The position numbers and the translations under genes are program-made. A stretch of DNA of 64,000 nt, from positions 2,046,001 through 2,110,000 of the forward strand of contig NZ_JANPVN010000001.1 in assembly GCF_026157085.1 (NCBI RefSeq), read 5' to 3'. The stretch is from Sphingomicrobium arenosum (GTDB lineage Bacteria > Pseudomonadota > Alphaproteobacteria > Sphingomonadales > Sphingomonadaceae). How positions within the stretch are numbered: position 1 is the first letter of the stretch; every line of letters begins with the position of its first letter. The notes below the pieces were generated by a model. The model did not search any database, had not been told where the DNA came from, and worked only from the letters and a program-made list of their open reading frames with translations. Positions 1,862 to 15,111 of this stretch are shown piece after piece.

Positions 1862-3504
1862 AGCGACCCCTTGGTCGAGGGAATGCCGCCCCCGCCGCCC
1901 GTGCTCAATCCCTGCCGCAGCGCGCGCCCGAACGCCTTGAAGGCGCCCTCGACCTTGTGATGGTCATTGTCGCCCTCGACCTTCACGTGGATCGCCGCGC
2001 GCATGCTATCGGCGAGGCTGCGGAACACGTGCGGGGTCATCTCGGTCGGAAATTCGCCCAGATGCTCGGCCTCGAACGATCCGTCGAACTTGGCGAAGGG
2101 CCGCCCCGACAGGTCGATCAGCACCTCGGCGCGCGTTTCGTCCATCGGCAACGCAAAGCCGAAGCGCCCGATGCCGGCGCGGTCGCCCAGCGCCTCGTCG
2201 AGCGCCGCGCCGAGCGCCAGTGCGACATCCTCGATCGTGTGATGCGGGTCGATATGCGTGTCGCCGGTGCAGGCGAGGGTGAGCGAAAAGCCGCCATGGC
2301 TCGCCACCTGGTCGAGCATATGGTCGAAAAAGCCGATCCCCGTGGCGATCGATCGTTCCGGCTCGGGCGCATCGAGGTCGATCGACAGCGCGATCTGCGT
2401 CTCGCTCGTATCGCGCGTGACGCTGGCGCGGCGGCGCTTGGGCCCATCCTCGCGGATCCCGAAGACGCTCAGCAGCGCGCGGTTTTCGGCCTCGGTGCCG
2501 ATCGTCACCCGCACGCCGCCCGGCGCGGCATTGGGTCGAAAGCGCACCTTGACCGCCGCCGCCTCGAGCCGCTTCGCCAGCGCTTGCGGGTCGGCGACGA
2601 CGAGGAACAGGTAATTGCCGCCCTCGTACAGCGCTTCGACCTCGTCCACACCGCGCAACAGCGCCGCAAGCCGCGCCCGCTCGGCGAGCAGCGTCTCGAC
2701 CCGCTCGGCATGGATCGGCATCCGCTCGGGCGCCAGCGCCGATAGCGCCGCGGCGATCGACGGCCCCGGCAGCGGATAAGGCGGCGACACGCGCGCCAGC
2801 CAGTCGATCACATTGGCATCGGCGATCGCACAGCCGATCCGCGCCCCCGCCAGCCCATAGGCCTTGGACAGCGTCCGCAAGACAATGAGATTGTCGAGAT
2901 TGCCGGCATCGGGCGCGAGGCTCGGCGCGTCCGAAAACTCACCATAGGCTTCGTCCGCCACCACCAGCGTGTCGGGCAGCGCGGCGGCGATCTCGCGCAC
3001 CGTGTCAACCGCAATGGGCGTACCGGTCGGGTTGTTGGGCGTGCACAGGAATAGGAGCTTCGGCGCGATACCGTCCTTCGCCGCCTTGAGCACCGCGCCC
3101 GGATCGAAAGCGAAATCCTCGCTCATCCGCACACTGTCGACCTTCGCCCCCTGGATGCGCGCGAATTGCGCATAAGCGGAAAAGGTCGGCTCGACGACGA
3201 GGATGCGATCCTCGCCCGGCCGCAGGAAGGCGCGGCACAACAGATCGATGGCGTCATCGCTGCCCCGCGTCACCCACAAGCGCTGCGGGAAGACGCCATA
3301 AAGCCCTGCCATCCGCCGCCGTAGCGCATCGGGTTGCGGCTCGGGATAGCGGTTGATGTCCTTGCCCCCCGCCAGCGGCGCAAAGGGGTTCTCGTTAGCG
3401 TCGAGCCGGATCGTCCCCGGCACCGGCGCGCCCGCAAGATCGGTGCTCGGCAGGCCCCGCAGCTCGGGCCGGGCGAGGCGATCGCCGATCGGTTGGTCGC
3501 TCAT
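1858..3504 (-). CDS. hisC-hisB: Fused histidinol-phosphate aminotransferase (HisC) - imidazoleglycerol-phosphate dehydratase (HisB)
   Basis: One uninterrupted 548-codon frame joins two histidine enzymes. Residues 1-350 are a class II PLP aminotransferase: LDANENP at 34-40, the CTPNNPTGTP loop near 154-163, DEAYGEF, and the PLP lysine Lys214 in TLSKAYGLAG. It converts imidazole acetol phosphate to histidinol phosphate. After about 10 charged linker residues, residues 360-548 are IGP dehydratase, with metal-site motifs DHMLDQVASHGG, HHTIEDVALALG and DHHKVEGAFKAFGRAL. The dehydratase step comes immediately before the aminotransferase step. I find no stop and no ATG, GTG or TTG in this frame at the junction (about 2419-2455). 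The start ATG at 3504 overlaps the hisD stop by ATGA. A sequencing indel joining two genes is unlikely because both domains are in one frame and complete, but it should be checked. Confidence 0.93.
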   Translation of the reverse strand: MSDQPIGDRLARPELRGLPSTDLAGAPVPGTIRLDANENPFAPLAGGKDINRYPEPQPDALRRRMAGLYGVFPQRLWVTRGSDDAIDLLCRAFLRPGEDRILVVEPTFSAYAQFARIQGAKVDSVRMSEDFAFDPGAVLKAAKDGIAPKLLFLCTPNNPTGTPIAVDTVREIAAALPDTLVVADEAYGEFSDAPSLAPDAGNLDNLIVLRTLSKAYGLAGARIGCAIADANVIDWLARVSPPYPLPGPSIAAALSALAPERMPIHAERVETLLAERARLAALLRGVDEVEALYEGGNYLFLVVADPQALAKRLEAAAVKVRFRPNAAPGGVRVTIGTEAENRALLSVFGIREDGPKRRRASVTRDTSETQIALSIDLDAPEPERSIATGIGFFDHMLDQVASHGGFSLTLACTGDTHIDPHHTIEDVALALGAALDEALGDRAGIGRFGFALPMDETRAEVLIDLSGRPFAKFDGSFEAEHLGEFPTEMTPHVFRSLADSMRAAIHVKVEGDNDHHKVEGAFKAFGRALRQGLSTGGGGGIPSTKGSL

Positions 3505-4796
3505 CGCACGCCCTCCTTCTCGCCCGCGCGGATCTCGGCGGCCCGCGCGTGCGCCTCGAGCCCCTCGAGGCGCGCGAGGATCGCCGCTGGCCCCGCCAGT
3601 CGCCGCGAGGCCTCGGTCGTCAAACGCTGCACGCTGATCGCCTTCAGATAGGTCAGCGCGGTGACACCGCCGGTGTAGCGCGCCGCGCCATCGGTCGGGA
3701 GCACGTGGGACGAGCCCGCCAGATAGTCGCCGAAGCTCTCCGCCGCGCCCTCGCCGACGAAGATCGCGCCGGCATTGGTCACGCTTTCGGCCAGCCGCGC
3801 GGCCTGTCCGTCCTCCAGCGCGATGCTGAGATGCTCGGGCGCATAGGCGTTGGCGATGGCGACAGCCTCGCCCAGGTCGGCACAACGGATCGCCCGCGTC
3901 GGCGCGAAGTTGCCTCCCATCGCGGCGGCCTGCGCGTCGACCTCGTCGAGCACGCGCTCCAGTATGCCCTCATCGGGGCTGACCACCAGCACCTGCGCAT
4001 CCGCGCCATGTTCGGCTTGGCTCAACAGGTCGGCCGCCACCCGCGCCGGATCGCTGTCCTTGTCCGCGATCACCAGCAATTCGCTCGGCCCCGCGGGCAG
4101 GTCGATACCGGGGCCGCCGGGCAGGCTCGCGACTTGCGCCTTGGCCGCCGCGACCCAAGCATTGCCGGGCCCGCAAATACGGTCGACGGCCTCGATCTCG
4201 CCCGCGCCAAAGGCCAGCGCGGCCACCGCCTGCGCCCCGCCGATCGTCCAGATCGCCTCGATCCCGCAATATTTGGCTGCCAGCGCCACCGCCGGGTCGA
4301 GCCCGCCTCCGGCACGCGGCGGCGTCACGACGGTCAATCGCTCGACCCCCGCAACCCGCGCCGGGATCGCCAGCATCAACAAGGTAGAAAAGAGCGGTGC
4401 CTTGCCGCCCGGCACATAAAGCCCCGCCGATCCCAGTGGCGCCCAGCGCTTCTCGACCGTCAGCCCCGGCACGGTCTCGACCGACACGGGGGCGGGCAGC
4501 GTCGCTTCGTGGAAGCGCCGGATATTCTCCGCCGCCATTTCGATCGCTGCCACTGCCTGCGCGGGCAGCTGCGCCCGCGCCTGTTCGGCATAAGGCGCCA
4601 CTGCGAGCCGCTCGGGTGCCGCGCCGTCGATCCGTTCGGCAATTTCGCACAGCGCGTCCCAGCCGCCGCCGCGGACCTTGGCGATGATGTCGCGCACCGC
4701 CTCCTGCATCGCGCCATCCTCGCGCCGCTCGGGCCGCGCCAGCGCGGCCTTGCGCCCCTGGGCGTCGAGCGCGCTCCAGTCGATCACCCGGTTCAC
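3501..4796 (-). CDS. hisD: Histidinol dehydrogenase HisD
   Basis: HisD carries out the last two steps, the NAD-dependent four-electron oxidation of L-histidinol to histidine, at a zinc site. The 431-residue protein has the family landmarks: YVPGGKAPL, RICGPGN, the Gln and His zinc ligands in LLSQAEHGADAQ, the catalytic Glu-His pair in APEHLSI, the aspartate ligand in GDYLAGSSHVLPT and the C-terminal histidine in LEAHARAAEIR. The start is GTG at 4796, overlapping the hisG stop by GTGA. Its own stop overlaps the hisC-hisB start, so the chain of coupled genes is unbroken. Confidence 0.97.
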   Translation of the reverse strand: MNRVIDWSALDAQGRKAALARPERREDGAMQEAVRDIIAKVRGGGWDALCEIAERIDGAAPERLAVAPYAEQARAQLPAQAVAAIEMAAENIRRFHEATLPAPVSVETVPGLTVEKRWAPLGSAGLYVPGGKAPLFSTLLMLAIPARVAGVERLTVVTPPRAGGGLDPAVALAAKYCGIEAIWTIGGAQAVAALAFGAGEIEAVDRICGPGNAWVAAAKAQVASLPGGPGIDLPAGPSELLVIADKDSDPARVAADLLSQAEHGADAQVLVVSPDEGILERVLDEVDAQAAAMGGNFAPTRAIRCADLGEAVAIANAYAPEHLSIALEDGQAARLAESVTNAGAIFVGEGAAESFGDYLAGSSHVLPTDGAARYTGGVTALTYLKAISVQRLTTEASRRLAGPAAILARLEGLEAHARAAEIRAGEKEGVR

Positions 4797-5680
4797 AGCA
4801 TCATCTTTTCGATGGGCATGACGAGAATGTCGCGCGCGCCAGCCGCTTTCAGCGCTTCCAGCGTTTCCCAGAAAACCGATTCTCGCGCCACCGCCTGCAC
4901 CGCGACATGACCGTCCATCCCCATCAGCGGCATCACCGTCGGCGCTTCGGCGCCCGGCAGGATGCGGGTGATGTCGGCGAGCGCCTCCTCAGGCGCATTG
5001 AGCACGATATATTTGCTCTCCGCCGTCGCGATGACGCCCAGCATTCGTGTTTTGAGCGCCTCGGCACGATCCACCATCGGCGGGGCCATCGCGGCGCGCG
5101 TACGGATGAGCACGCTTTCGGATTCGAGAATGGTGTGCACTGGTTTCAGGCCGTTCGCCTCTAGCGTCTGCCCGGTCGAGACGAGATCGCAGACATAATC
5201 GGCGATGCCCAGCCGCGGCGCCAGTTCGACCGCGCCATGCATGGTCACGACTTCGGCCTCGATCCCCTCGCGCGAGAGCCAGTCGCGGGTCAGCAGCGGA
5301 TAGCTGGTCGCGATGCGCTTGCCCTCGAGCATCGCGGGCGACCAATCGTCGACCACCGGAATGGCGATCTTGAGCGCGCAGCCGCCAAAGCCCAGCCGCG
5401 CCAGAACATCGACATCCTCGTTGGCCGGGTCGAGCCGATATTCCTCGAGCACGTTCAACCCCACGATGCCGAGATCGCATACCCCGTCGCCGACCAGCGT
5501 GGGAATGTCGTCATCGCGTACCAGCATGAGGTCCAAGGGGAAATTGGTCGCCCGCGCGGTCAGCTGTCCCTTGGCGCTGCGGATCTTGATCCCCGCCTTG
5601 GCCAGCAACCCGTCACCGGCATCCGCCAGCCGCCCCGATTTCTGCACCGCCATGCGCAGGCGGGTGATGGTCGTCGTCAT
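4793..5680 (-). CDS. hisG: ATP phosphoribosyltransferase HisG, long form
   Basis: HisG commits PRPP and ATP to histidine synthesis. At 295 residues this is the long, homohexameric form with a C-terminal ACT-like regulatory domain (roughly residues 225-295) that binds histidine. It therefore does not need HisZ, and no hisZ is seen. Residues 165-176 hold the PRPP-binding motif DLVSTGQTLEAN. The N-terminal lobe contains VQKSGRL and GIVGLNVLEEY. ATG at 5680 overlaps the stop of the upstream regulator gene by ATGA. It is the first biosynthetic gene of the operon. Confidence 0.96.
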   Translation of the reverse strand: MTTTITRLRMAVQKSGRLADAGDGLLAKAGIKIRSAKGQLTARATNFPLDLMLVRDDDIPTLVGDGVCDLGIVGLNVLEEYRLDPANEDVDVLARLGFGGCALKIAIPVVDDWSPAMLEGKRIATSYPLLTRDWLSREGIEAEVVTMHGAVELAPRLGIADYVCDLVSTGQTLEANGLKPVHTILESESVLIRTRAAMAPPMVDRAEALKTRMLGVIATAESKYIVLNAPEEALADITRILPGAEAPTVMPLMGMDGHVAVQAVARESVFWETLEALKAAGARDILVMPIEKMML

Positions 5681-6075
5681 TGCTCGTCCCTGTCGATTGT
5701 GGCCTCATTCGTGGCGGCCTCGTTCATCGCCGCCAGCGCGGTGCGATAGCCCCCCGCCGTGCCGCCCTTCAGGAATCGCGCGACGCGGGTGATGGTGGTG
5801 GTCGACACGCCGGTCAGCTCGTGAATCTGGCGATAGGTCCAGCGCTCCTCGTCCAGGAGCCGCGCGACGTGCCACCGTTCCGCCAGCGCGCGCCGTTCGG
5901 ACGGCGTGCACAGATCATCGAGCAGCATGGCGATCGCCGCCGGATCATCGAGCCGCGCCAATACGGCGCTCAATTGCCGCTCCGCCTCGACGGGCGACTC
6001 GGCCCCGCTTCCAGCTACCCGTTCCCTGATTTCTGCCATAAGCTTGTTCCAACGTGTTAAAACGCTGGAATGCAT
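5677..6075 (-). CDS. YerC/YecD-type TrpR-superfamily DNA-binding protein, head of his operon
   Basis: The protein is small and helical, with the TrpR-superfamily helix-turn-helix pattern. DDLCTPSERRALAERWHVARLL is followed by the recognition region TYRQIHELTGVSTTTITRVARFL. YerC-like proteins are TrpR relatives often found in or beside histidine genes, and I infer it regulates this operon. Its stop overlaps hisG by ATGA. Two starts are possible. ATG at 6075 (132 residues) has an AGAAGG sequence 8 bases upstream. ATG at 6039 (120 residues) lacks an obvious ribosome-binding site but would leave the palindrome at 6047-6070 outside the gene, as an operator should be. I list the longer form. The ligand is unknown; this is not the tryptophan repressor TrpR itself. 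Confidence 0.8.
   Translation of the reverse strand: MHSSVLTRWNKLMAEIRERVAGSGAESPVEAERQLSAVLARLDDPAAIAMLLDDLCTPSERRALAERWHVARLLDEERWTYRQIHELTGVSTTTITRVARFLKGGTAGGYRTALAAMNEAATNEATIDRDEQ
6047..6070. promoter_or_regulatory. Imperfect 24-base palindrome at the 5' end of the his operon
   Basis: The left arm TTCCAACGTG and the right arm AACGCTGGAA are inverted repeats matching at 8 of 10 positions around a short AT-rich centre. Its place at the start of the TrpR-superfamily regulator gene suggests an operator for that protein. On the minus strand a weak promoter can be drawn just upstream (TTGCAA, 16 bases, TAAATG), which would put the palindrome around the transcription start. Function is inferred. 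Confidence 0.4.
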
Positions 6076-6175
6076 TTAGCGGTCCTTCTGTCGATTGCAA
6101 GGGGCTCTTTGTCGAAACACGCTGAAGCGCGCGGCGGTCGGCGTCAGGCTACGCTGCGACGAAGGAGATCCTCTG

Positions 6176-7300
6176 ATGACCAGCCTCGCCCTATTGCTGT
6201 CGGCCAGCCTGCTCGATCCGGCCACCCCGACCCCGATCCACGCCGCGGGTCTGGACGATGTCGTCCTCTACGAGCCGCTCGGGCGCATCGATCCCGCGCA
6301 GATCGATGATCAGGGCATCCATGTTCTCAGCCTGATGGGTCGAGAGGATCTGGCCATCGCGCACCGCGACTATGAGCGCGGAACTTGCCCGACCGATCCC
6401 ACCGCAGACCCGATGGCCCTGATTCTGGAACGCGCTGCGCAAACGCGGATCGTCATCATCAACGAGCAGCACACCCGCTCGCGCTCACGCCTTACCACCG
6501 CGCAGCTCATTCCGGCGCTGCACGATCTTGGTTATCGCCATCTCGCGCTCGAGGCCTTCTCCAATCCGCCCTCGGACACAGGCTCCGTCACCCTAAAGGA
6601 TGGCAAGCCTCGCGAGTTAGACGGCGGCTATACGCGCGAGCCGACCTTTGCTGCCGTTCTGCGCGAGGCAGGCGAGCGCGGCTGGCAGTTTCACGCCTAT
6701 GAAATCATCCATGACGAGGAGAGCCTCGCGCTTTCACCCCTCGATCGAACCAATCGGCGCGAGCAGGCACAGGCCAACAATCTCGTCCGAGTGCTCGCCG
6801 CCATGCCCGCCGATGAAAAACTCCTCATCCATGTCGGCTACAGCCATGGCATGGAGACACCTTACGATCTCGGCGAGGATGGCACGATCCATTGGATGGG
6901 GCTTCGTCTCGCCGCCGCCACCGGCATCGACCCGCTAACGATCAGCCAGGTCGATTGCGTCCACGATGGCTCGGGCCTGCGCCTCGTCACCGATCCGGAT
7001 CGACAGCGCGAGGGCTATGACCTGACCGTCGCGATCCCCGCCGAACGGCTGGTCGAGGGCCGCCCTGCGCACCGCGTCGAAGCGATGGGCCTCGAACCGC
7101 GCGCCATCCCCACGGCCTGGCGCCCCGCCACCGGCTGGCATGTCATCGAGGTCCGCGGCCCGGGCATGGGGCTGGACGAAGTCCCTCTCGATCGCATCGC
7201 CATCCATGCCAGCGAGACCACGCTCCCCGCCTACCTCGTCCCGGCCGAAGGCGACCACGAGGTGCGCATCATCGCCGTAGCCGACGCGCCGGGCGACTGA
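6176..7300 (+). CDS. Predicted secreted protein, distantly ChaN/erythromycin-esterase-like
   Basis: I do not recognise a named protein. The 374 residues start at ATG 6176 behind a strong GAAGGAG site and begin with a short hydrophobic stretch (LALLLSASLL) that may be a signal peptide. The core has IVIINEQHTRSRSR, then LALEAF, GGYTREPTF, and LLIHVGYSHGME with conserved-looking His and Glu residues. This layout recalls the ChaN/EreA-like superfamily, which I offer only as a tentative fold. The C-terminal third looks like a separate beta-rich region. It lies alone between the divergent his operon and the trp leader, with no clear link to either pathway. A hydrolase is possible; no substrate can be proposed. 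Confidence 0.75.
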   Translation: MTSLALLLSASLLDPATPTPIHAAGLDDVVLYEPLGRIDPAQIDDQGIHVLSLMGREDLAIAHRDYERGTCPTDPTADPMALILERAAQTRIVIINEQHTRSRSRLTTAQLIPALHDLGYRHLALEAFSNPPSDTGSVTLKDGKPRELDGGYTREPTFAAVLREAGERGWQFHAYEIIHDEESLALSPLDRTNRREQAQANNLVRVLAAMPADEKLLIHVGYSHGMETPYDLGEDGTIHWMGLRLAAATGIDPLTISQVDCVHDGSGLRLVTDPDRQREGYDLTVAIPAERLVEGRPAHRVEAMGLEPRAIPTAWRPATGWHVIEVRGPGMGLDEVPLDRIAIHASETTLPAYLVPAEGDHEVRIIAVADAPGD

Positions 7301-7370: not shown

Positions 7371-7439
7371 ATGCGTAAGACCGCTCTCGTTTTGATCTCC
7401 TCGACCGCTGCCCTGCAGTGGTGGTGGCGTTCGTCCTGA
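7371..7439 (+). CDS. trpL: trp operon leader peptide TrpL (22 residues, three consecutive Trp)
   Basis: A 22-codon frame, beginning MRKTALVLISS, has three tandem TGG codons at 7419-7427 and ends at TGA 7437. A rho-independent terminator follows 36 bases later, and then the aroF-trpEGDCFBA genes. This is the arrangement of ribosome-mediated trp attenuation: stalling at the Trp codons when charged tRNA-Trp is scarce favours an antiterminator. There is no ribosome-binding site before the ATG and a -35 box sits 36 bases upstream, so it is probably translated from a leaderless RNA, as described for trpL in Sinorhizobium meliloti. The attenuation role is inferred from layout. Confidence 0.88.
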   Translation: MRKTALVLISSTAALQWWWRSS

Positions 7440-7474
7440 CGGCGGCGCCCGCGCTCACGCATCTGTGAACGACG

Positions 7475-7498
7475 AGCCCGCCACCGAGCGGGCTTTTT
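7475..7498 (+). terminator. trp attenuator terminator
   Basis: A perfect 7-base stem (AGCCCGC at 7475-7481, GCGGGCT at 7488-7494) with a 6-base loop is followed by a T-run to 7498. Upstream GGCGG at 7441-7445, just after the trpL stop, can pair with CCGCC at 7478-7482 inside the 5' arm. That would be a candidate, if short, antiterminator. Confidence 0.85.
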
Positions 7499-7561
7499 CA
7501 CGACCTACGATCAGGTCCGCTCTCTTCCCCTCTCCCTCCCGAGACCAAAGAGACCCCCGAC

Positions 7562-8575
7562 ATGATCATCGTGATGAAACCCGACGCCACCCAGGATACC
7601 ATCGACCGCCTCCTCGGGCGGATCGAGGAAAAAGGACTGAAGCCGCTCCACATGCCCGGCGCCGAACGCGTCGTGTTGGGCGCGCTGGGCGATGAACGCG
7701 TGCTCGCCGAACTCGCGCTGGAGGCCGATCCCTCGGTTGAGAGCGTCAAGCCCATCCTCGCCCCCTACAAGCTGGCCGCACGCGACCTTCACCCGCACGA
7801 CAGCCGGGTGAAGATCGGCGATGTCGCCGTCGGCGGCGGCCGCTTCGCACTCATCGCCGGTCCCTGCGCGGTCGAGAGCGAGGACCAGCTTCGCGCTTCG
7901 GCCAAGGCCGCCAAGGCGGGCGGCGCGCGCATCCTTCGCGGCGGCGCCTACAAGCCGCGCACCAGCCCCTACAGTTTCCAGGGCAAGGGCCCCGAGGGGC
8001 TCGACCTCCTGCGCGACATCGGCGCCGAACTGGACATGCCGGTGGTCACCGAACTGGTCGACACCAAGGATCTCGACCGCTTCCTCGACACCGCCGACGC
8101 CATTCAGATCGGCACCCGCAACATGCAGAATTTCGAATTGCTCAAAGCGGTCGGCCAATGCGGCAAGCCCGTCATCCTCAAGCGCGGCATGGCGGCGCGC
8201 ATCGACGACCTTCTCATGGCCGCCGAATATGTGCTCGCCGGGGGCAATGACGACGTCATCCTATGCGAACGCGGCATCCGCACCTTCGAGACCGCGACGC
8301 GCAACACGCTCGACCTCGCCGCCGTCCCGCTGCTCAAGGAAAAGACCCACCTCCCGGTCATCGTCGACCCCAGTCACGGCACGGGCAAGCGCAGCCTCGT
8401 CGCCCCCATGACGCTCGCCGCCGCCGCCGCCGGAGCCGATGGCGTGATGGTCGAGGTGCATATCGACCCCGCCACCGCGCTGTCCGACGGCCCGCAGTCG
8501 CTCTACCCCGAACAGATGGAGGCATTGGGCCACCAGCTGTCGCGCCTACTCCACGCGCTGGGCCGCGACTTGTGA
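7562..8575 (+). CDS. aroF: DAHP synthase, type I-beta with N-terminal ferredoxin-like domain
   Basis: The enzyme condenses PEP and erythrose 4-phosphate to DAHP, the first step of the shikimate pathway. At 337 residues it has the Thermotoga-type layout: an N-terminal ferredoxin-like regulatory domain (about 1-65) and a barrel with [14 protein letters not shown] (metal-ligand Cys102), [26 protein letters not shown] and DPSHGTGKR. It is the first structural gene behind the trp attenuator and its stop overlaps trpE by GTGA. Aromatic precursor supply should therefore follow tryptophan demand. A DAHP synthase inside the trp operon is uncommon. Confidence 0.94.
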
Positions 8576-10080
8576 GCCACCTCCGCCTCCTCTCCCGGCG
8601 CCTGCCAGGCGTGCACGACCCGGTCGCGCTCTTCGCCGCGCTCCATGCCGAGGGGCGTGCGCGCATGATCTTCCGCCGCACCGGCGGCACCGCCGCGATC
8701 TTGTGCGACAGCGCCATCGCGATCGATGCCAAGGGCAATGGCGCCGAGGTCCGGGTCGCGGGGGCGCAAGGGGCGGCGCTCCTCGCCCCGCTCCTCGCCC
8801 CGCTTGCCGCGCAGGTCGTCGAGCAGGACGCCGAATCCGCCCGCCTGTCCTTTCCCCCGCCCAGCGAGGATGGCGACGAGGCCGAGCGCGCCGCGCGCCC
8901 CACCGCGCTCCACTTGCTGCGCGCCGCCGCTGCGCTCGCGGGAGACGGCGAGGATGACAGCCACGCCTTGGCGCTCTTCACCCTCATCGGCTTCGATCAT
9001 GCCGACATGGTCGAACCGATCGGCGTCGCCGCGCCCGGCGGTCCGCTCCCCGACCTTCTCGCCCGGCTCGCAGAGACGCTCGTCGTCGTCGAACCTTCGG
9101 GCAGCGCACGTGTCCTCGCCATCGCCGCCGTCACCGGGCAGCAGGGCGAGGACCACCGCTTCCTCTGCCTCGCGCAGGAAAAGCTCGGCGCGCTCGCCGC
9201 CCGGATCGACCAGGCCCGCGCGCCCCGGCTCGACGAGGCCGCCGCCACGACCGTCACGACCGATGCGGACGATGCCGCCTTCGCTGCCACCGTCAAGGCG
9301 CTCAAGGACAATATCGCGGCGGGCGACATCTTCCAGGCGGTGCCCAGCCGCGCTTTCGCGCTGCCCTGTCCCGACCCGCTTGCGGCCTTCCGCCGCCTCG
9401 TCGCCGCCGACCCCTCGGCCTATCAGTATTATGCCCAGACCCGTCACGGCATCCTCTTCGGCGCCTCGCCCGAAAACGCCGTCCATCTCGCGCCGTCCGC
9501 CGACGGCCTGCGCCTCTCGGTCAGCCCGATCGCCGGCACCCGCCCGCGCGGCACCACTCCGGACGAGGACGACCGCCTCGAGGCCGAGCTTCGCCTCGAC
9601 ACCAAGGAGACCGCCGAGCATCTCATGCTGGTCGACTTGGCGCGCAACGACGTCGCCCGCATCGCCCGCCCCGGCACGCGCCGCGTCACCAGTCTGATGC
9701 GCGTCGAACGCTTCGCCCGCGTCATGCACATAGTCTCGACCGTCGAAGGGCTGCTCCCCGAGGGCGGCGATCTCGTCGATGCAATCCGCGCCTGTCTCAA
9801 CGTTGGCACCTTGTCGGGCGCGCCGAAGCTGCGCGCCATCGAGCTGATCCGCGCTCACGAGGCGCGCCAGCGCGGCTTCTACGGCGGCGCCATCGGCGTG
9901 CTTGGATCGCGCGGCGCCTTCGACAGCGCAGTGGTCATCCGCTCGGCCTTCGTCACGAACGGCATGGCCGAGGTGCGCGCGGGCGCGGGCGTCGTCGCTC
10001 ACTCCGACCCCGCCGCCGAGGCTGCCGAGACGCGCGCCAAGGCGAGCGCCGTCCTCGCCGCGCTGGGAGCCGCCGCATGA
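8572..10080 (+). CDS. trpE: Anthranilate synthase component I TrpE
   Basis: TrpE converts chorismate to anthranilate with ammonia from TrpG. The 502-residue protein has the chorismate-enzyme core: FQAVPSRAFALPCP, LFGASPEN, SPIAGTRPRG, HLMLVDLARND and GTLSGAPK near residue 412. It aligns by eye with enteric TrpE along its whole length, including the N-terminal domain. One deviation stands out. Where enteric TrpE has LLES for tryptophan feedback binding, this protein reads RMIFRR (residues 31-36), so inhibition may be altered. The start is GTG 8572 inside the aroF stop; the gene ends overlapping trpG by ATGA. Confidence 0.96.
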   Translation: MSHLRLLSRRLPGVHDPVALFAALHAEGRARMIFRRTGGTAAILCDSAIAIDAKGNGAEVRVAGAQGAALLAPLLAPLAAQVVEQDAESARLSFPPPSEDGDEAERAARPTALHLLRAAAALAGDGEDDSHALALFTLIGFDHADMVEPIGVAAPGGPLPDLLARLAETLVVVEPSGSARVLAIAAVTGQQGEDHRFLCLAQEKLGALAARIDQARAPRLDEAAATTVTTDADDAAFAATVKALKDNIAAGDIFQAVPSRAFALPCPDPLAAFRRLVAADPSAYQYYAQTRHGILFGASPENAVHLAPSADGLRLSVSPIAGTRPRGTTPDEDDRLEAELRLDTKETAEHLMLVDLARNDVARIARPGTRRVTSLMRVERFARVMHIVSTVEGLLPEGGDLVDAIRACLNVGTLSGAPKLRAIELIRAHEARQRGFYGGAIGVLGSRGAFDSAVVIRSAFVTNGMAEVRAGAGVVAHSDPAAEAAETRAKASAVLAALGAAA

Positions 10081-10676
10081 AGCTCCTCGTCATCGACAAT
10101 CGCGACAGCTTCACCTTCAACCTCGTCGAGGCCTTCCGCCTCGCAGGCGCCGATGTGCAAGTGCGCCGCAATAGCATCAGTGTCAGCGAAGCCCTTGAAA
10201 CTGCGAAAAATGGTGCGCTTCTCCTCTCACCTGGCCCCGGCGCACCCGCCGATGCCGGGAATATCCTGCCCCTCTGCAACGCCGCGCGGGGCCGCGTGCC
10301 GCTAATCGGCATCTGTCTTGGCCACCAAGCCATCGTCGAGGCTGCAGGCGGCACCGTCACCCGCGCCCTCGCTCCTGCCCATGCCCTCGCCCAGCCGATG
10401 CGCCATTCAGGGACCGGTCCTTTCGCCGATCTGCCCGACCCGCTCATCGTCGGGCGCTACCATTCGCTTTGCACCCCCTCCCGCGACCTCCCCGACCGCT
10501 TCACGGTCGATGCCGAACATGACGGCATGGCGATGGCAGTGCGCGACGAGGCCGGGCTCCAGCTCGGCCTCCAATTCCACCCCGAATCGATCCTCACCCC
10601 GCGCGGCGACCTTCTCGTCCGCAATCTCCTGACATGGGCCAAGGTCGCCCTCGACCGTCCTGCCCGCGCTGCCTGA
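10077..10676 (+). CDS. trpG: Anthranilate synthase glutamine amidotransferase TrpG
   Basis: TrpG releases ammonia from glutamine for TrpE. The 199-residue class I amidotransferase has LLVIDNRDSFTFNL, LSPGPGAP, the nucleophile Cys80 in GICLGHQAIVEA, and His168-Glu170 in FHPES. It is a separate gene, whereas in Escherichia coli TrpG is fused to TrpD, but GRYHSL and the following GMAMAVRDE resemble the enteric domain closely. It starts at ATG 10077, coupled to trpE; trpD begins 11 bases after its stop. Confidence 0.96.
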   Translation: MKLLVIDNRDSFTFNLVEAFRLAGADVQVRRNSISVSEALETAKNGALLLSPGPGAPADAGNILPLCNAARGRVPLIGICLGHQAIVEAAGGTVTRALAPAHALAQPMRHSGTGPFADLPDPLIVGRYHSLCTPSRDLPDRFTVDAEHDGMAMAVRDEAGLQLGLQFHPESILTPRGDLLVRNLLTWAKVALDRPARAA

Positions 10677-10687
10677 AAGACCCCCTC

Positions 10688-11728
10688 ATGATCGCTCAGC
10701 TTCCCGCCGACCACGGCCCCGTCCCCAATCCCCTGCCCAAGCTCCTGTCGGGCGAGGACCTTCCCGCCGAGGCAGCGTGCCACCTGTTCGAGCGCCTCGT
10801 CCTCGGCCGCCTGTCCGAAGCCGAGATTGCCAGCGTCCTCGTCGCGCTGCGCATGAAGGGCGAGACGGCGGCGGAAATGATCGGCGCCGCGCGTGCGCTC
10901 GCCGAGGCGGCCGAGGCCTTTCCCTCCCCCGACACGCTCTTCGCCGACTGCTGCGGTACCGGCGGCGATTCTTCGGGCATCATCAACGTCTCGACCGCCG
11001 CCGCCTTCGTCGCCGCCGCCTGCGGGCTACCCATTGCCAAGCATGGCAACCGTTCGGTCAGCTCCAAATGCGGCTCGGCCGACGTGCTCGAGGCGCTGGG
11101 CGCGCGCATCGACCTGCCCGCCGCCCAAGCGCGCGAGCTGCTCGACGACACCGGCTTCACCTTTCTCTATGCCCCCGCCTATCACCCCGGCATGCGCCAC
11201 GCGGGCCCCGTCCGCCGCCAGTTGGGCGTGCGCACGGTGATGAACCTCCTCGGCCCCTGCATCAATCCGGCGCGCCCAAAGGTGCAGTTGCTCGGCGTCG
11301 CCGACCCCACCCTCATGCGCCGCATCGCCCGCACGCTGGAAGCGATGGGCGTCGAAAAGGCGCTGGTCGTCCATGGCGCTGGGCTCGACGAACTCGCACT
11401 CCACGCCGACAGCCGCGCGCTGCGCCTCGACGATGGCACCCTCACCGAAGAGACCATCGTCCCCGAGGAACTCGGCCTCGACCCCGCGCCGCTGAAAGCG
11501 CTCGCGGGCGGCGACGCCGAGGACAATGCAAAACGCCTGCGCGCCATCCTTTCGGGCGAAGGGAGCAAGGCCGAGCGCGACATGGTCGCCCTGAATGCCG
11601 GTGCGCTGTTGCACCTTGCCGGATTGCACGCCACGCTCGCCGACGCGGTCGCCGCTGCCGGCGCGGCAATCGACGAGGGCAAGGCGGGGGCGGTGCTCCA
11701 GACCTATGTGGAGGCAAGCAATGCGTGA
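10688..11728 (+). CDS. trpD: Anthranilate phosphoribosyltransferase TrpD
   Basis: TrpD transfers the phosphoribosyl group of PRPP to anthranilate. The 346-residue protein has the PRPP loop CGTGGDSSGIIN at residues 89-100, KHGNRSVSSKCGSADVLEALG from 118, and MNLLGPCINPA. I chose ATG 10688 rather than the upstream in-frame ATG at 10634, which would lie inside trpG. Its stop overlaps the start of trpCF by 8 bases. The protein is complete and enteric-like. Confidence 0.95.
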   Translation: MIAQLPADHGPVPNPLPKLLSGEDLPAEAACHLFERLVLGRLSEAEIASVLVALRMKGETAAEMIGAARALAEAAEAFPSPDTLFADCCGTGGDSSGIINVSTAAAFVAAACGLPIAKHGNRSVSSKCGSADVLEALGARIDLPAAQARELLDDTGFTFLYAPAYHPGMRHAGPVRRQLGVRTVMNLLGPCINPARPKVQLLGVADPTLMRRIARTLEAMGVEKALVVHGAGLDELALHADSRALRLDDGTLTEETIVPEELGLDPAPLKALAGGDAEDNAKRLRAILSGEGSKAERDMVALNAGALLHLAGLHATLADAVAAAGAAIDEGKAGAVLQTYVEASNA

Positions 11729-13097
11729 CGTTCTTGGAGATATCGTAACCCGAAAGCGCCGCGAGGTGGCCGATCGCTTCGCCACGCGTCAGCCCAGCGC
11801 CCAACCGACCAGCCGCAGCCTTGCCGCCGCCCTGTCCAAGCCCGGCGCACGCTTCATCATGGAGGTGAAGCCCCGCTCCCCCTCGGGTCATGTTGCCAAG
11901 CACAGCCCCGAGGCCGCGCTCGCCGCATATCGCCCCGTCGCCGATGCCATCAGCATCCTCACCGACGAGGCCGACTTCGGAGGGTCGCTCGACCTCCTCT
12001 CGCGCCTCCGCAAGGATTATGGCGGACCCATCCTCGCCAAGGATTTCATCGTCGATCCGCGCCAGGTCACCGAAGCCCGCGCCGCGGGGGCCGATGCCGT
12101 CCTCGCCATGCTCTCGGTCCTGACCGACGATGAAACCCGCGCCGTCATCGACGAAGCGACCCGCCTCGGCATGGACGTGCTCGTCGAGACCCATGATGAA
12201 GAGGAGTTGGATCGCGCCCTCGGCCTCGGCGCCGCCCTCATCGGCATCAACAACCGCGACCTCAAGAGCCTCACCACCGACCTTGCCGTGACCGAGCGCC
12301 TCGCCCCCAAGGTACCGCGCGGCGTCACGCTGATCAGCGAGAGCGGCATCGCCACCTATGCCGATGCGCAGCGGCTCGCCCCCCATGTCGACGGCTTTCT
12401 CGTCGGCTCGGCACTGATGGCCGCCGACGACATCGCCTTTGCCGCCCGAACGCTCGTCCATGGCCCGGTCAAGCTATGCGGCATGACCCGCGTCGCCGAC
12501 GTCGCCCTCGCCGCCCGCCAGGGCGCCAGCCATGTCGGCTTCATCTTCGCTCCCGGCACGCCGCGCGCCATCGACGTCGAGCGCGCGCGCACGCTCACCA
12601 TGCTGGCCAGCGATTTCGGCATGAAAACCGTCGGCGTGTTCCGCGACATGACCGTCGATGCCATCGCCGAGGCGAGCCGCATCCTGCGCCTCGACGCGGT
12701 CCAGCTGCACGAGGCCGATGCCGACGCGAAAGTCTCGGCGCTGCGCGACAAACTGCGCCCCGGCACCGAGTGCTGGGCGCTCTCCAGCGTCGGCGAGAAC
12801 GGCCCCGCCCCCGTGCCGCAGGCCGACCGCACGCTGTTCGACAGCTTCGTCGGCGGCCAGTCGGGCGGCACCGGCATCGCCTTCGACTGGGCGCAGGTCG
12901 CGGGCCGCGACGATCTCACCCGCGCGTTCCTCGCGGGCGGCATCGGCCCCGACAATGTCCAGCTCGCCGCGCGGGCGGGCGCCTATGGCCTCGATATCTG
13001 CTCGGGCGTCGAAAGCGCGCCCGGGACCAAGGATCCCGCCAAGATCGAGGCGCTGTTTGCCGCGCTACGCCATCCCGACCGGAGGAGCGGCCAGTGA
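11721..13097 (+). CDS. trpCF: Fused indole-3-glycerol-phosphate synthase (TrpC) - phosphoribosylanthranilate isomerase (TrpF)
   Basis: A single 458-residue protein carries two consecutive barrels. Residues 1 to about 248 are Trp[13 protein letters not shown] (catalytic lysine), [34 protein letters not shown]. From residue 250, [12 protein letters not shown] (catalytic Cys), [21 protein letters not shown] and [10 protein letters not shown] mark TrpF. TrpF makes CdRP from phosphoribosyl anthranilate and TrpC turns it into indole glycerol phosphate. The fusion and the junction [14 protein letters not shown] resemble the E. coli TrpC-TrpF protein, whereas alphaproteobacteria usually keep trpC and trpF apart. 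Its stop overlaps trpB by GTGA. Confidence 0.95.
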
Positions 13098-14317
13098 AGC
13101 AGGACGGCCGTTTCGGCGATTTCGGCGGCGCTTATGTGCCCGAAATCCTCGTCCCCGCGATCGAGCAATTGGAAGGCGCCTATCTCGCCGCGGTTCGCGA
13201 CGAGGATTTCCTCGCCGAGCTCGATCATCTCCTGAGAACCTACGCCGGTCGCCCGACTGCGCTGACCCGCTGCCGCAACATCGGCGATGATCGCGTGCGC
13301 CTGTACTTGAAGCGCGAGGACCTGCTCCACGGCGGCGCGCACAAGACCAACCAGGTCATCGCGCAGGCGCTGCTCGCCAAGCGCATGGGCAAGACCCGCC
13401 TCATCGCCGAGACGGGCGCGGGCCAGCATGGCGTCGCCACCGCCATCGCGGGCGCGCTGTTCGGCATGGAAACGCGCATCTACATGGGCGCCCTCGACGT
13501 CGAGCGGCAGGCCTTGAACGTCTTTCGCATGCGCCTCATGGGCGCCGAGGTCGTGCCCGTCGAAATCGGCAGCCGCACGCTGAAGGACGCGGTCAACGAG
13601 GCCTTGCGCGACTGGACCGCCAGCTTCGCCGACACCCATTATCTCCTCGGCACCGTCGCCGGTCCCCACCCCTTCCCGCAGATGGTGCGCGACTTCCAGG
13701 CGGTGATCGGCAAGGAGGCGCGCGAACAGATGCTGGAGCGCGAGGGCCGCCTTCCCGACAGCGTCATCGCCTGCGTTGGCGGCGGCTCCAATGCCATCGG
13801 CATCTTCCACCACTTCGTGCCCGACGAGGGCGTCGCGCTGGTCGGCGTCGAGGCGGCGGGCAAGGGCATGGACAGCGGCGAGCATGGTGCCACCCTGCAA
13901 AAGGGAAAGCGTGGCATCCTCCACGGTGCAGAGACCTATCTGATGCAGGACGACCATGGCCAGGTCGGCGAAAGCTGGTCGGTCTCGGCAGGCCTCGACT
14001 ATCCCGCCGTCGGCCCCGAACATGCTCATCTCATGGCCTCGGGCCGCGCCACCTATGTCGGCGCGACCGACGCCGAAGCCATCGCCGCCTTCCAGCGCCT
14101 CGCGCGCGAGGAAGGCATCATTCCCGCCCTCGAGACCGCCCATGCGCTCGCCGAGGGGTTCAAGCAGGTCGAAGCCGCGCAAGCCGCGGGCGAGGAGAAG
14201 GTCATCCTCGTCAATCTCTCCGGTCGAGGCGATAAAGACATTGCGCAGGCACAAAAGCTTCTGGGGGAAGTTTTTGGCCAAGCACAGGCGATGCAGTTGG
14301 TAGGCCTCGCGTCATGA
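13094..14317 (+). CDS. trpB: Tryptophan synthase beta chain TrpB, enteric-like
   Basis: TrpB condenses indole with serine at a PLP site. The 407-residue protein has the PLP lysine Lys84 in [11 protein letters not shown] (77-87) and the phosphate loop [11 protein letters not shown]. From memory, alphaproteobacterial TrpB usually reads GRPSPL and LNHTGAHKIN at these sites. This one reads [10 protein letters not shown] (51-60) and [11 protein letters not shown], as in enterobacteria, which supports transfer. The start is GTG 13094 with GGAGGAG at 13081, overlapping the trpCF stop by GTGA. Its end overlaps trpA by ATGA. Confidence 0.96.
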
Positions 14318-15111
14318 GCAGTCAGCGCTACGGCAAGATGTTCGCCCGCCTCGATGCCGCGAACGAGGGCGCGCTGGGCGCCTTCCTCATGCTCGGCGAC
14401 CCCGACGCCGACACCAGCCTCGCGCTGCTCACCGCCTGTGTCGAGGGCGGGGCCGACATGCTCGAGGTCGGCATCGCCTTCTCCGATCCCGTCGCCGACG
14501 GCCCGGTGATCCAGGCCGCCGCCGACCGCGCGCTCGCCGCGGGCATGACGCCGCAGGCCTCGCTCGATCTCATCGCCGAGGTGCGCGCCGCGCATCCCGA
14601 CGTGCCGATCGGTATTCTCACCTACGCCAATCTCGTCGTCTCGCGCGGCATCGAGGCTTTCTGCCGTGCCGCCACCGAGGCGGGCGCCGACAGCCTGCTC
14701 GTCGCCGACGTGCCCAGCCTCGAAGCACCGCGCTTTGCCGCCGCCGCGCGCGCCGTCGGGCTCGACCCCGTGCTCATCGCCGCGCCAAACACCGGCGATG
14801 CCGCGCTCGAACGCATCGCCGACCTCGGGTCGGGCTATACCTATTGCGTTGCCCGCACGGGCGTGACGGGACAGCGAAGCGACATGGCGCTCGACCATGA
14901 CGCGCTGTTCGAGCGGCTTCGTGCCTTGGGCGCGCCGCCCCCTATCCTCGGCTTCGGCATCTCGACGCCCGAACAGGTTCGCGCCGGTATCGCGGCGGGC
15001 GCGGCTGGCGTCATCTCGGGCAGCGCCATCGTCGCCGCGGCGCAGGGTTCGGACGATCCGGTCGCCGCCGTTCGCGCCCTTGTCGCCGAGCTCAAGTCGG
15101 GAACGCGCTAG
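14314..15111 (+). CDS. trpA: Tryptophan synthase alpha chain TrpA
   Basis: TrpA cleaves indole glycerol phosphate and passes indole through the tunnel to TrpB. The 265-residue barrel has catalytic Glu51 and Asp62 in [40 protein letters not shown] and GFGIS. YANLV and VADVP again follow the enteric pattern. ATG 14314 is coupled to the trpB stop. It is the last gene of the operon and ends convergently on the next gene, sharing 4 bases, with no obvious terminator between them. Confidence 0.95.

Follow-up and report, generated by a model that had tools for sequence, protein, structure and literature searches.

How did a complete tryptophan (trp) operon with trpC fused to trpF come to stand in an alphaproteobacterium? 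The operon lies in the 64,000-nucleotide stretch of Sphingomicrobium arenosum DNA analyzed here (contig NZ_JANPVN010000001.1, positions 2,046,001 to 2,110,000; hereafter the window). An earlier reading of it (the original prediction) had likened its genes to those of enterobacteria and suggested an old transfer. We conclude, with a probability of about 0.85, that a complete attenuated trp operon was acquired from outside Alphaproteobacteria, from a donor of gammaproteobacterial type, and replaced the native split genes. Gene content, the fusion, the trees and the conservation of leader and terminator were computed. The switching of the attenuator, the transfer in one step and the donor are inferred.

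The seven genes aroF-trpE-trpG-trpD-trpCF-trpB-trpA, read as open reading frames (ORFs) from the sequence and translated, are contiguous on the plus strand at 7562-15111. They overlap at five of the six junctions, and a spacer of 11 nt separates trpG from trpD. The GC content of the operon is 69.9% vs 66.5% for the window. The compact operon of the original prediction is thereby confirmed, but its start was set too late, as a leader (7371-7439) and a terminator (7475-7498) belong to it. The trpCF gene (11721-13097) encodes indole-3-glycerol-phosphate synthase (IGPS) and phosphoribosylanthranilate isomerase (PRAI) in a single uninterrupted ORF of 458 residues without an internal stop. The protein passes the bifunctional TrpC/TrpF model NF006945 (PRK09427) of NCBIfam with 464.4 bits vs a cut-off of 380, and aligns with 1pii across residues 14-450, so the predicted fusion holds. 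A single PRAI match and a single IGPS match were obtained in the host genome, both within this ORF; these searches found no second trpC or trpF there. The first gene, aroF (7562-8575), encodes a 3-deoxy-D-arabino-heptulosonate 7-phosphate (DAHP) synthase of the Bacillus subtilis/Thermotoga (type I-beta) kind (NF006421, 465 bits, cut-off 335; TIGR01361, 370 bits, cut-off 268). It is not the sole DAHP synthase of the host, since a class II enzyme is present elsewhere in the genome. Anthranilate synthase component I is encoded by trpE (8572-10080, GTG start), assigned by translation, tree, NCBIfam and alignment. The anthranilate synthase amidotransferase gene trpG (10077-10676; TrpG-type amidotransferase cut-off), the anthranilate phosphoribosyltransferase gene trpD (10688-11728) and the tryptophan synthase genes trpB (beta, 13094-14317, GTG start) and trpA (alpha, 14314-15111) are assigned by trees and pass their NCBIfam cut-offs, with a topology test in addition for trpB.

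The trees separate these proteins from their alphaproteobacterial counterparts. For each of TrpC, TrpF, TrpB, TrpA, TrpE, TrpD, and TrpG (47-63 rows per protein), Sphingomicrobium and Sphingosinicella form one joint clade with the fused-type rows of gamma genomes and with a Gemmatimonadetes metagenome-assembled genome (MAG), L111. By gamma we mean genomes of the same phylum outside Alphaproteobacteria that group with E. coli. In all seven trees this clade excludes the rows of native sphingomonads, those of other alphaproteobacteria and the unfused ones, with a support of 99 for TrpC and 100 for the other six proteins. The approximately unbiased (AU) test was applied to TrpB and TrpC after removal of the Bacillota, Chloroflexota, and Acidobacteriota rows, and it rejected trees in which all alphaproteobacterial rows are held together (p-AU 4e-05 for TrpB and 0.0054 for TrpC). 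The trees proposed in the original prediction (TrpE, TrpCF, TrpB, and TrpA) group the window with fused operons like that of E. coli, not with alphaproteobacteria, and all seven conflict with a placement of every Trp protein inside that class. The order leader-aroF-trpE-G-D-CF-B-A is also found in gamma L230 and L241 and in L111, where TrpC and TrpF are likewise in one ORF. The AroF of the window shares 60.2% identity with that of L111 and, on average, 59.6% with those of the two gamma trp operons; the proteobacterial matches that follow reach 54% and 48%.

Several observations weigh against this reading. All trees except that of AroF are quick trees, and genomes were labeled gamma by kinship within the phylum and by clustering with E. 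coli. The sampled gamma clade has the sphingomonad rows as its sister group and does not enclose them, and L111 forms a third branch of the joint clade, with a long branch. The mean identity of TrpC is 44.9% to gamma vs 46.1% to native sphingomonads, and that of TrpG is 45.5% vs 45.6%. Among 18 gamma fused-type loci, aroF is the first gene in just two, and aroF could have joined the operon separately. The AroF tree (17 rows, with L318 as the only extra outgroup locus, on a very long branch) does not place the closest relatives of the AroFs of sphingomonads. An enterobacterial donor in the strict sense was considered and is unsupported because the sphingomonad rows fall outside the gamma clade. 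The trees back the transfer raised in the original prediction; they do not show an enterobacterium as its donor.

The same observations bear on an alternative in which the donor was another lineage with the same cassette, for example one among the Gemmatimonadota related to L111 or one outside the present sample, and the gamma and sphingomonad operons are two recipients or cousins. The layout of L111 and its one-ORF TrpCF slightly favor this. L111 also groups with the sphingomonad rows in the tree of TrpD (support 81), and the window TrpE shares 44.8% identity with that of L111 and no more than 42.9% with gamma rows. However, L111 is a single MAG contig with long branches; it joins gamma L241 in the TrpG tree (support 81), and its place is open in the remaining trees. 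We regard this alternative as unlikely, while giving it real weight.

The distribution of the fusion is consistent with a gain by the sphingomonad clade from outside. A TrpCF match was found in 66 of 71 genomes of the genus (62 full-length in one open frame and 4 in pieces), and the fusion is thus genus-wide and not special to this genome. In the family, 292 of the 298 genomes drawn gave a match; among the matches listed, a full-length fusion outside the genus was present only in g24, where four of six genomes carry it and the other two gave no match. The tree places g24 with the named Sphingosinicella loci. A wide presence of trpCF in Sphingomonadales, which the original prediction had named as its counter-case, therefore holds for the genus and otherwise for g24 alone among those matches. 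The class sample (240 genomes, 181 with a match) contained no further fusion among the matches listed; in G715 the match spans the TrpC and TrpF parts but has an internal stop. In the phylum sample (349 genomes), outside the class and among the matches listed, 42 matches were full-length at 36-47% identity (3 of the 42 with one internal stop), and three more matches at 38% identity contained a stop. The native arrangement is different: in 10 native sphingomonad genomes trpF-B-A is apart from trpG-D-C, with trpE near trpG-D-C in eight of them, and AroF gave no match in the four native sphingomonad genomes sampled. A yerC-hisG pair adjoins the operon in loci of both Sphingomicrobium and Sphingosinicella. 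The recipient would have been the common ancestor of these two genera. It would have acquired the trp leader and attenuator, aroF, and trpE-G-D-CF-B-A as one piece, and the native split genes trpE..G-D-C and trpF-B-A would have been displaced.

It is very improbable that the fusion and the compact operon were instead regrouped from native genes within the sphingomonads, with the enteric likeness due to convergence. The identities of TrpC and TrpG given above, on average as high to native sphingomonad rows as to gamma rows, speak for such regrouping. Against it stand the common clade of all seven proteins with gamma rows, the AU rejections for TrpB and TrpC, and the identical order of Trp leader and aroF in the gamma loci and L111. 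A de novo fusion from native sphingomonad genes was likewise considered, and is rejected on the trees and AU tests.

The acquired operon appears to carry its own control element. By direct reading of the sequence upstream of aroF, we recognized a leader peptide ORF, MRKTALVLISSTAALQWWWRSS (7371-7439, plus strand), with three tandem Trp codons at 7419-7427. It is followed by an intrinsic terminator (7475-7498, plus strand) with a stem of 7475-7481 and 7488-7494 and a U-run to 7498. A predicted antiterminator (7441-7482, plus strand) pairs GGCGG at 7441-7445 with CCGCC at 7478-7482; this pairing forms in the fold with the ribosome stalled at the first Trp codon, and the terminator forms in the fold with the ribosome at the leader stop. 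Leader and terminator before aroF are, as read from the letters, a classical trp attenuator. Under scarce Trp-tRNA, the ribosome would stall at the tandem UGG codons, region 2 (GGCGG) would capture the 5' arm of the terminator by pairing, and transcription would continue into aroF and the trp genes. With plentiful Trp, the ribosome at the leader stop would cover region 2 and the terminator would form. The Rfam search of the window at gathering thresholds returned one tRNA and no trp leader.

The leader is conserved among relatives. Under one test, a leader ORF with adjacent Trp codons stands before aroF in 34 of 35 loci vs 6 of 700 shuffles. The same test before internal genes gave 2/35 for trpE, 2/37 for trpG, 1/39 for trpB, and 0/28 for trpA; in native loci it gave 0/13 for trpE, 0/16 for trpG, 0/14 for trpA, 4/16 for trpD, 1/16 each for trpC and trpF, and 1/14 for trpB. 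These leader counts include L111 and duplicate loci of the same genome (L110/L330, L091/L361, and L095/L358). In the terminator helix of 32 aroF leaders, 96.1% of cells are paired with 16 two-sided changes, and the covariation score was reached by none of 500 shuffles. When the ribosome is placed on the first Trp codon, the mean upstream pairing of region 3 is 0.82 in aroF leaders and 0.84 in trpD leaders (a second leader described below); with the ribosome at the leader stop it is 0.33 and 0.23, and in shuffled spacers it is 0.62 for both. Other results point the opposite way. The number of terminator pairs with a two-sided change (2) was equaled in 245 of 500 shuffles, and a pattern scan for promoters and terminators listed no promoter and did not list the aroF-leader terminator either. 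Stalled region 3 pairing of at least 0.8 occurs in 22 of 33 aroF leaders and 20 of 28 trpD leaders vs 38% and 40% of shuffled spacers. We rate the modeled antiterminator signal as moderate. An origin of the leaders as Trp-rich ORFs that arose by chance in GC-rich DNA beside an ordinary terminator, as the commonness of UGG in such DNA and the pairing of shuffled spacers might suggest, is scarcely credible in view of their frequency before aroF, their rarity before trpE, trpG, trpB, and trpA, and the covariation score.

A leader model (R1), built from the 32 sphingomonad aroF leaders only and run on 42 sources, also recognizes leaders outside the clade. It matches E. coli trpL (E 0.0012), gamma L230 (8.8e-5) and L241 (7.7e-7 and 9e-6), as well as gamma L236, L233, and L231, and L111 weakly (E 0.034). 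In six native loci, covering the trpG-D-C side only, R1 gave nothing under E 0.1. As R1 has just 10 pairs, much of its matching is carried by the shared Trp codons and terminator. In L241, two trp-type attenuators stand in tandem before aroF, at 3364-3453 and 3500-3598. Because L230, L241, and L111 have the same leader-aroF-trp layout, the attenuator probably traveled together with the operon. Attenuation needs no trans-acting regulator, and such a cassette would therefore be portable.

A second leader of this type stands before trpD in 28 of 48 loci by a strict test, and the aroF-leader model matches all 28 trpD-leader loci searched (E 1.5e-10 to 0.005). It is absent where the trpG-trpD gap between matches is 14-111 nt (the window, L090, L093, L097, L110, and L323-L331). 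Loci with a gap of 274-431 nt (L094, L106, L107, and L108) do have it, as do those with operon halves that are convergent (L112 and L337), divergent (L356) or apart. Five non-compact loci (L099, L105, L106, L112, and L360) fail the strict test, their leader being seen by the model or a looser pattern. Relatives whose operon is interrupted or split after trpG thus usually have their own attenuator before trpD. The trpD terminator shows less covariation than the aroF terminator. On a quick tree of 61 rows, presence of the trpD leader changes 8 times as first scored and 7 times with L105 counted as having a leader; there are 5 changes without L040, L046, and L105, and 4 when L050 and L096 are also removed. 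The inner leader may be old, with frequent losses, or may have been acquired more than once.

Many members of the genus have lost the front of the pathway. AroF was found at E <1e-50 in 36 of the 71 genomes, and 31 of the 66 TrpCF-bearing genomes are without it. A TrpE search in 19 of these 31 gave no match in 10 and weak matches in nine (E 1e-26 to 1e-32, 240-290 residues), which are probably PabB; read in this way, TrpE is lacking in all 19. In G236 and S. edaphi, the model scores the leader before trpD like an aroF leader and above the window's own leader, and in G154 the trpD leader looks like an aroF leader by eye. L108, a low-coverage MAG, contains at 4891-5073 a fragment that aligns with residues 442-502 of TrpE at 51% identity (E 1.4e-9). 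This remnant stands directly before an intact trpG, which is followed by leader and trpD; the locus holds no other significant part of TrpE, and aroF is absent from it too. Compact members retain the yerC-hisG site, as does the TrpE-less S. nitratireducens L091, so the front was probably lost in place in the latter. The TrpCF match itself is absent in five of the 71 genomes, including three (G120, G166, and G303) with a completeness of 99% or more. These three and two g24 genomes (G173 and G453), all near-complete, have no TrpCF match and a weak TrpE match or none, and are predicted from their gene content to be Trp auxotrophs.

The TrpE-less members, which include the isolates Sphingomonas edaphi, Sphingomonas alba, and Sphingomicrobium nitratireducens, are predicted to require anthranilate or Trp. 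In L098, a MAG locus without trpE whose genome has no AroF at E <1e-50, a kynureninase gene (7467-8696, minus strand; TIGR01814, 269 bits, cut-off 246) is divergent from the trpD leader. By analogy with Chlamydia caviae, salvage of kynurenine to tryptophan is possible at this locus. We do not extend a kynurenine route to all TrpE-less members, as a kynureninase beside trpD was seen in one locus only and no genome-wide kynureninase search was made. Class II DAHP synthase gave no match in 10 of 26 genus genomes searched; seven of these 10 are also without AroF, and of these seven, without both DAHP synthase types searched, two are less than 80% complete.

The TrpE of the window may also be controlled differently. 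Its best model is the enteric-type NF010079, in line with the enteric likeness claimed for it, but the score (436.8 bits vs 471) is under the cut-off, and that of TIGR00565 is missed as well. The LLES block (37-40 in E. coli), M293, and C465, which we take to be the feedback Trp-binding residues, are altered: IFRR followed by a 6-residue gap aligns with LLES, and Q and A replace M293 and C465. LLES is kept in eight gamma TrpE rows of the alignment and in L111, and the Sphingosinicella blocks are LLER (L106) and LLQR (L107). These residues suggest that Trp feedback on the window TrpE would be weaker. The altered block suggests, without proof, a larger share of control by attenuation than in E. 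coli. A TrpE search of the host genome gave this TrpE and one weak second match.

Outside the operon, the divergent neighbors hisG and a TrpR-related gene of the YerC/YecD family (4793-6075, minus strand; the latter at 5677-6075), identified by NCBIfam, provide the context of the insertion site. The YerC/YecD-family gene adjoins hisG and may control his and not trp genes, in line with the HisR idea. The ORF list of the window has an additional ORF (6095-7300, plus strand) between this pair and the leader.

Many congeners together show a single acquisition at different stages, from the compact operon to an inner second attenuator, to convergent, divergent or distant halves, to members with the front gone (a TrpE remnant persists in one MAG), and to members without TrpCF. 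On this material it can be tested if attenuation in cis renders an operon portable, and in what way an operon can split while its control is retained. As a tentative generalization, to which we give a little less than even odds, a self-regulating cassette under cis control moves between distant lineages as a unit; its attenuator was copied to trpD where the operon broke, and the front was lost in many Sphingomicrobium, leaving an attenuated half fed by outside anthranilate or kynurenine. We found no such operon in the Sphingomicrobium clade in the literature, judged by titles and with most subscription papers outside the search.

Ribosome-mediated Trp attenuation is known in an alphaproteobacterium, Sinorhizobium meliloti, where trpL-trpE(G) alone of three trp operons is attenuated (PMC7298713). 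In contrast, the whole acquired operon is attenuated here, and split relatives bear a leader on both halves. The trp operons of Chlamydia caviae, C. felis, and C. pecorum are described as lacking anthranilate synthase and containing kynU (PMC3937554). The TrpE-less congeners resemble them in keeping trpD-C-F-B-A without anthranilate synthase, with kynureninase beside trpD in L098. They differ in that Sphingomicrobium are not intracellular pathogens, the kynU adjacency is confined to one locus and L108 retains a TrpE remnant. The E. coli K-12 operon (NC_000913, trpL-trpE-G-D-CF-B-A) shares the gene order, the TrpC-TrpF fusion and a Trp-codon leader with terminator. Unlike E. coli, the window has aroF first, separate trpG and trpD (fused in E. 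coli), an altered TrpE feedback block and, in the trees, rows that form a sister group of the gamma clade. Xie et al. reportedly described the lateral movement of entire trp operons in 2003 (Microbiology and Molecular Biology Reviews) and 2004 (BMC Biology 2:15). The present case is alike in that a whole-pathway operon displaces a native set; the recipient clade, aroF, the accompanying attenuator, the later second attenuator and the loss of the front are specific to it. Lateral transfer of trp operons is thus known, and what seems to be added is that aroF and the attenuator were part of the moving unit and that an attenuator found a second use when the operon came apart.

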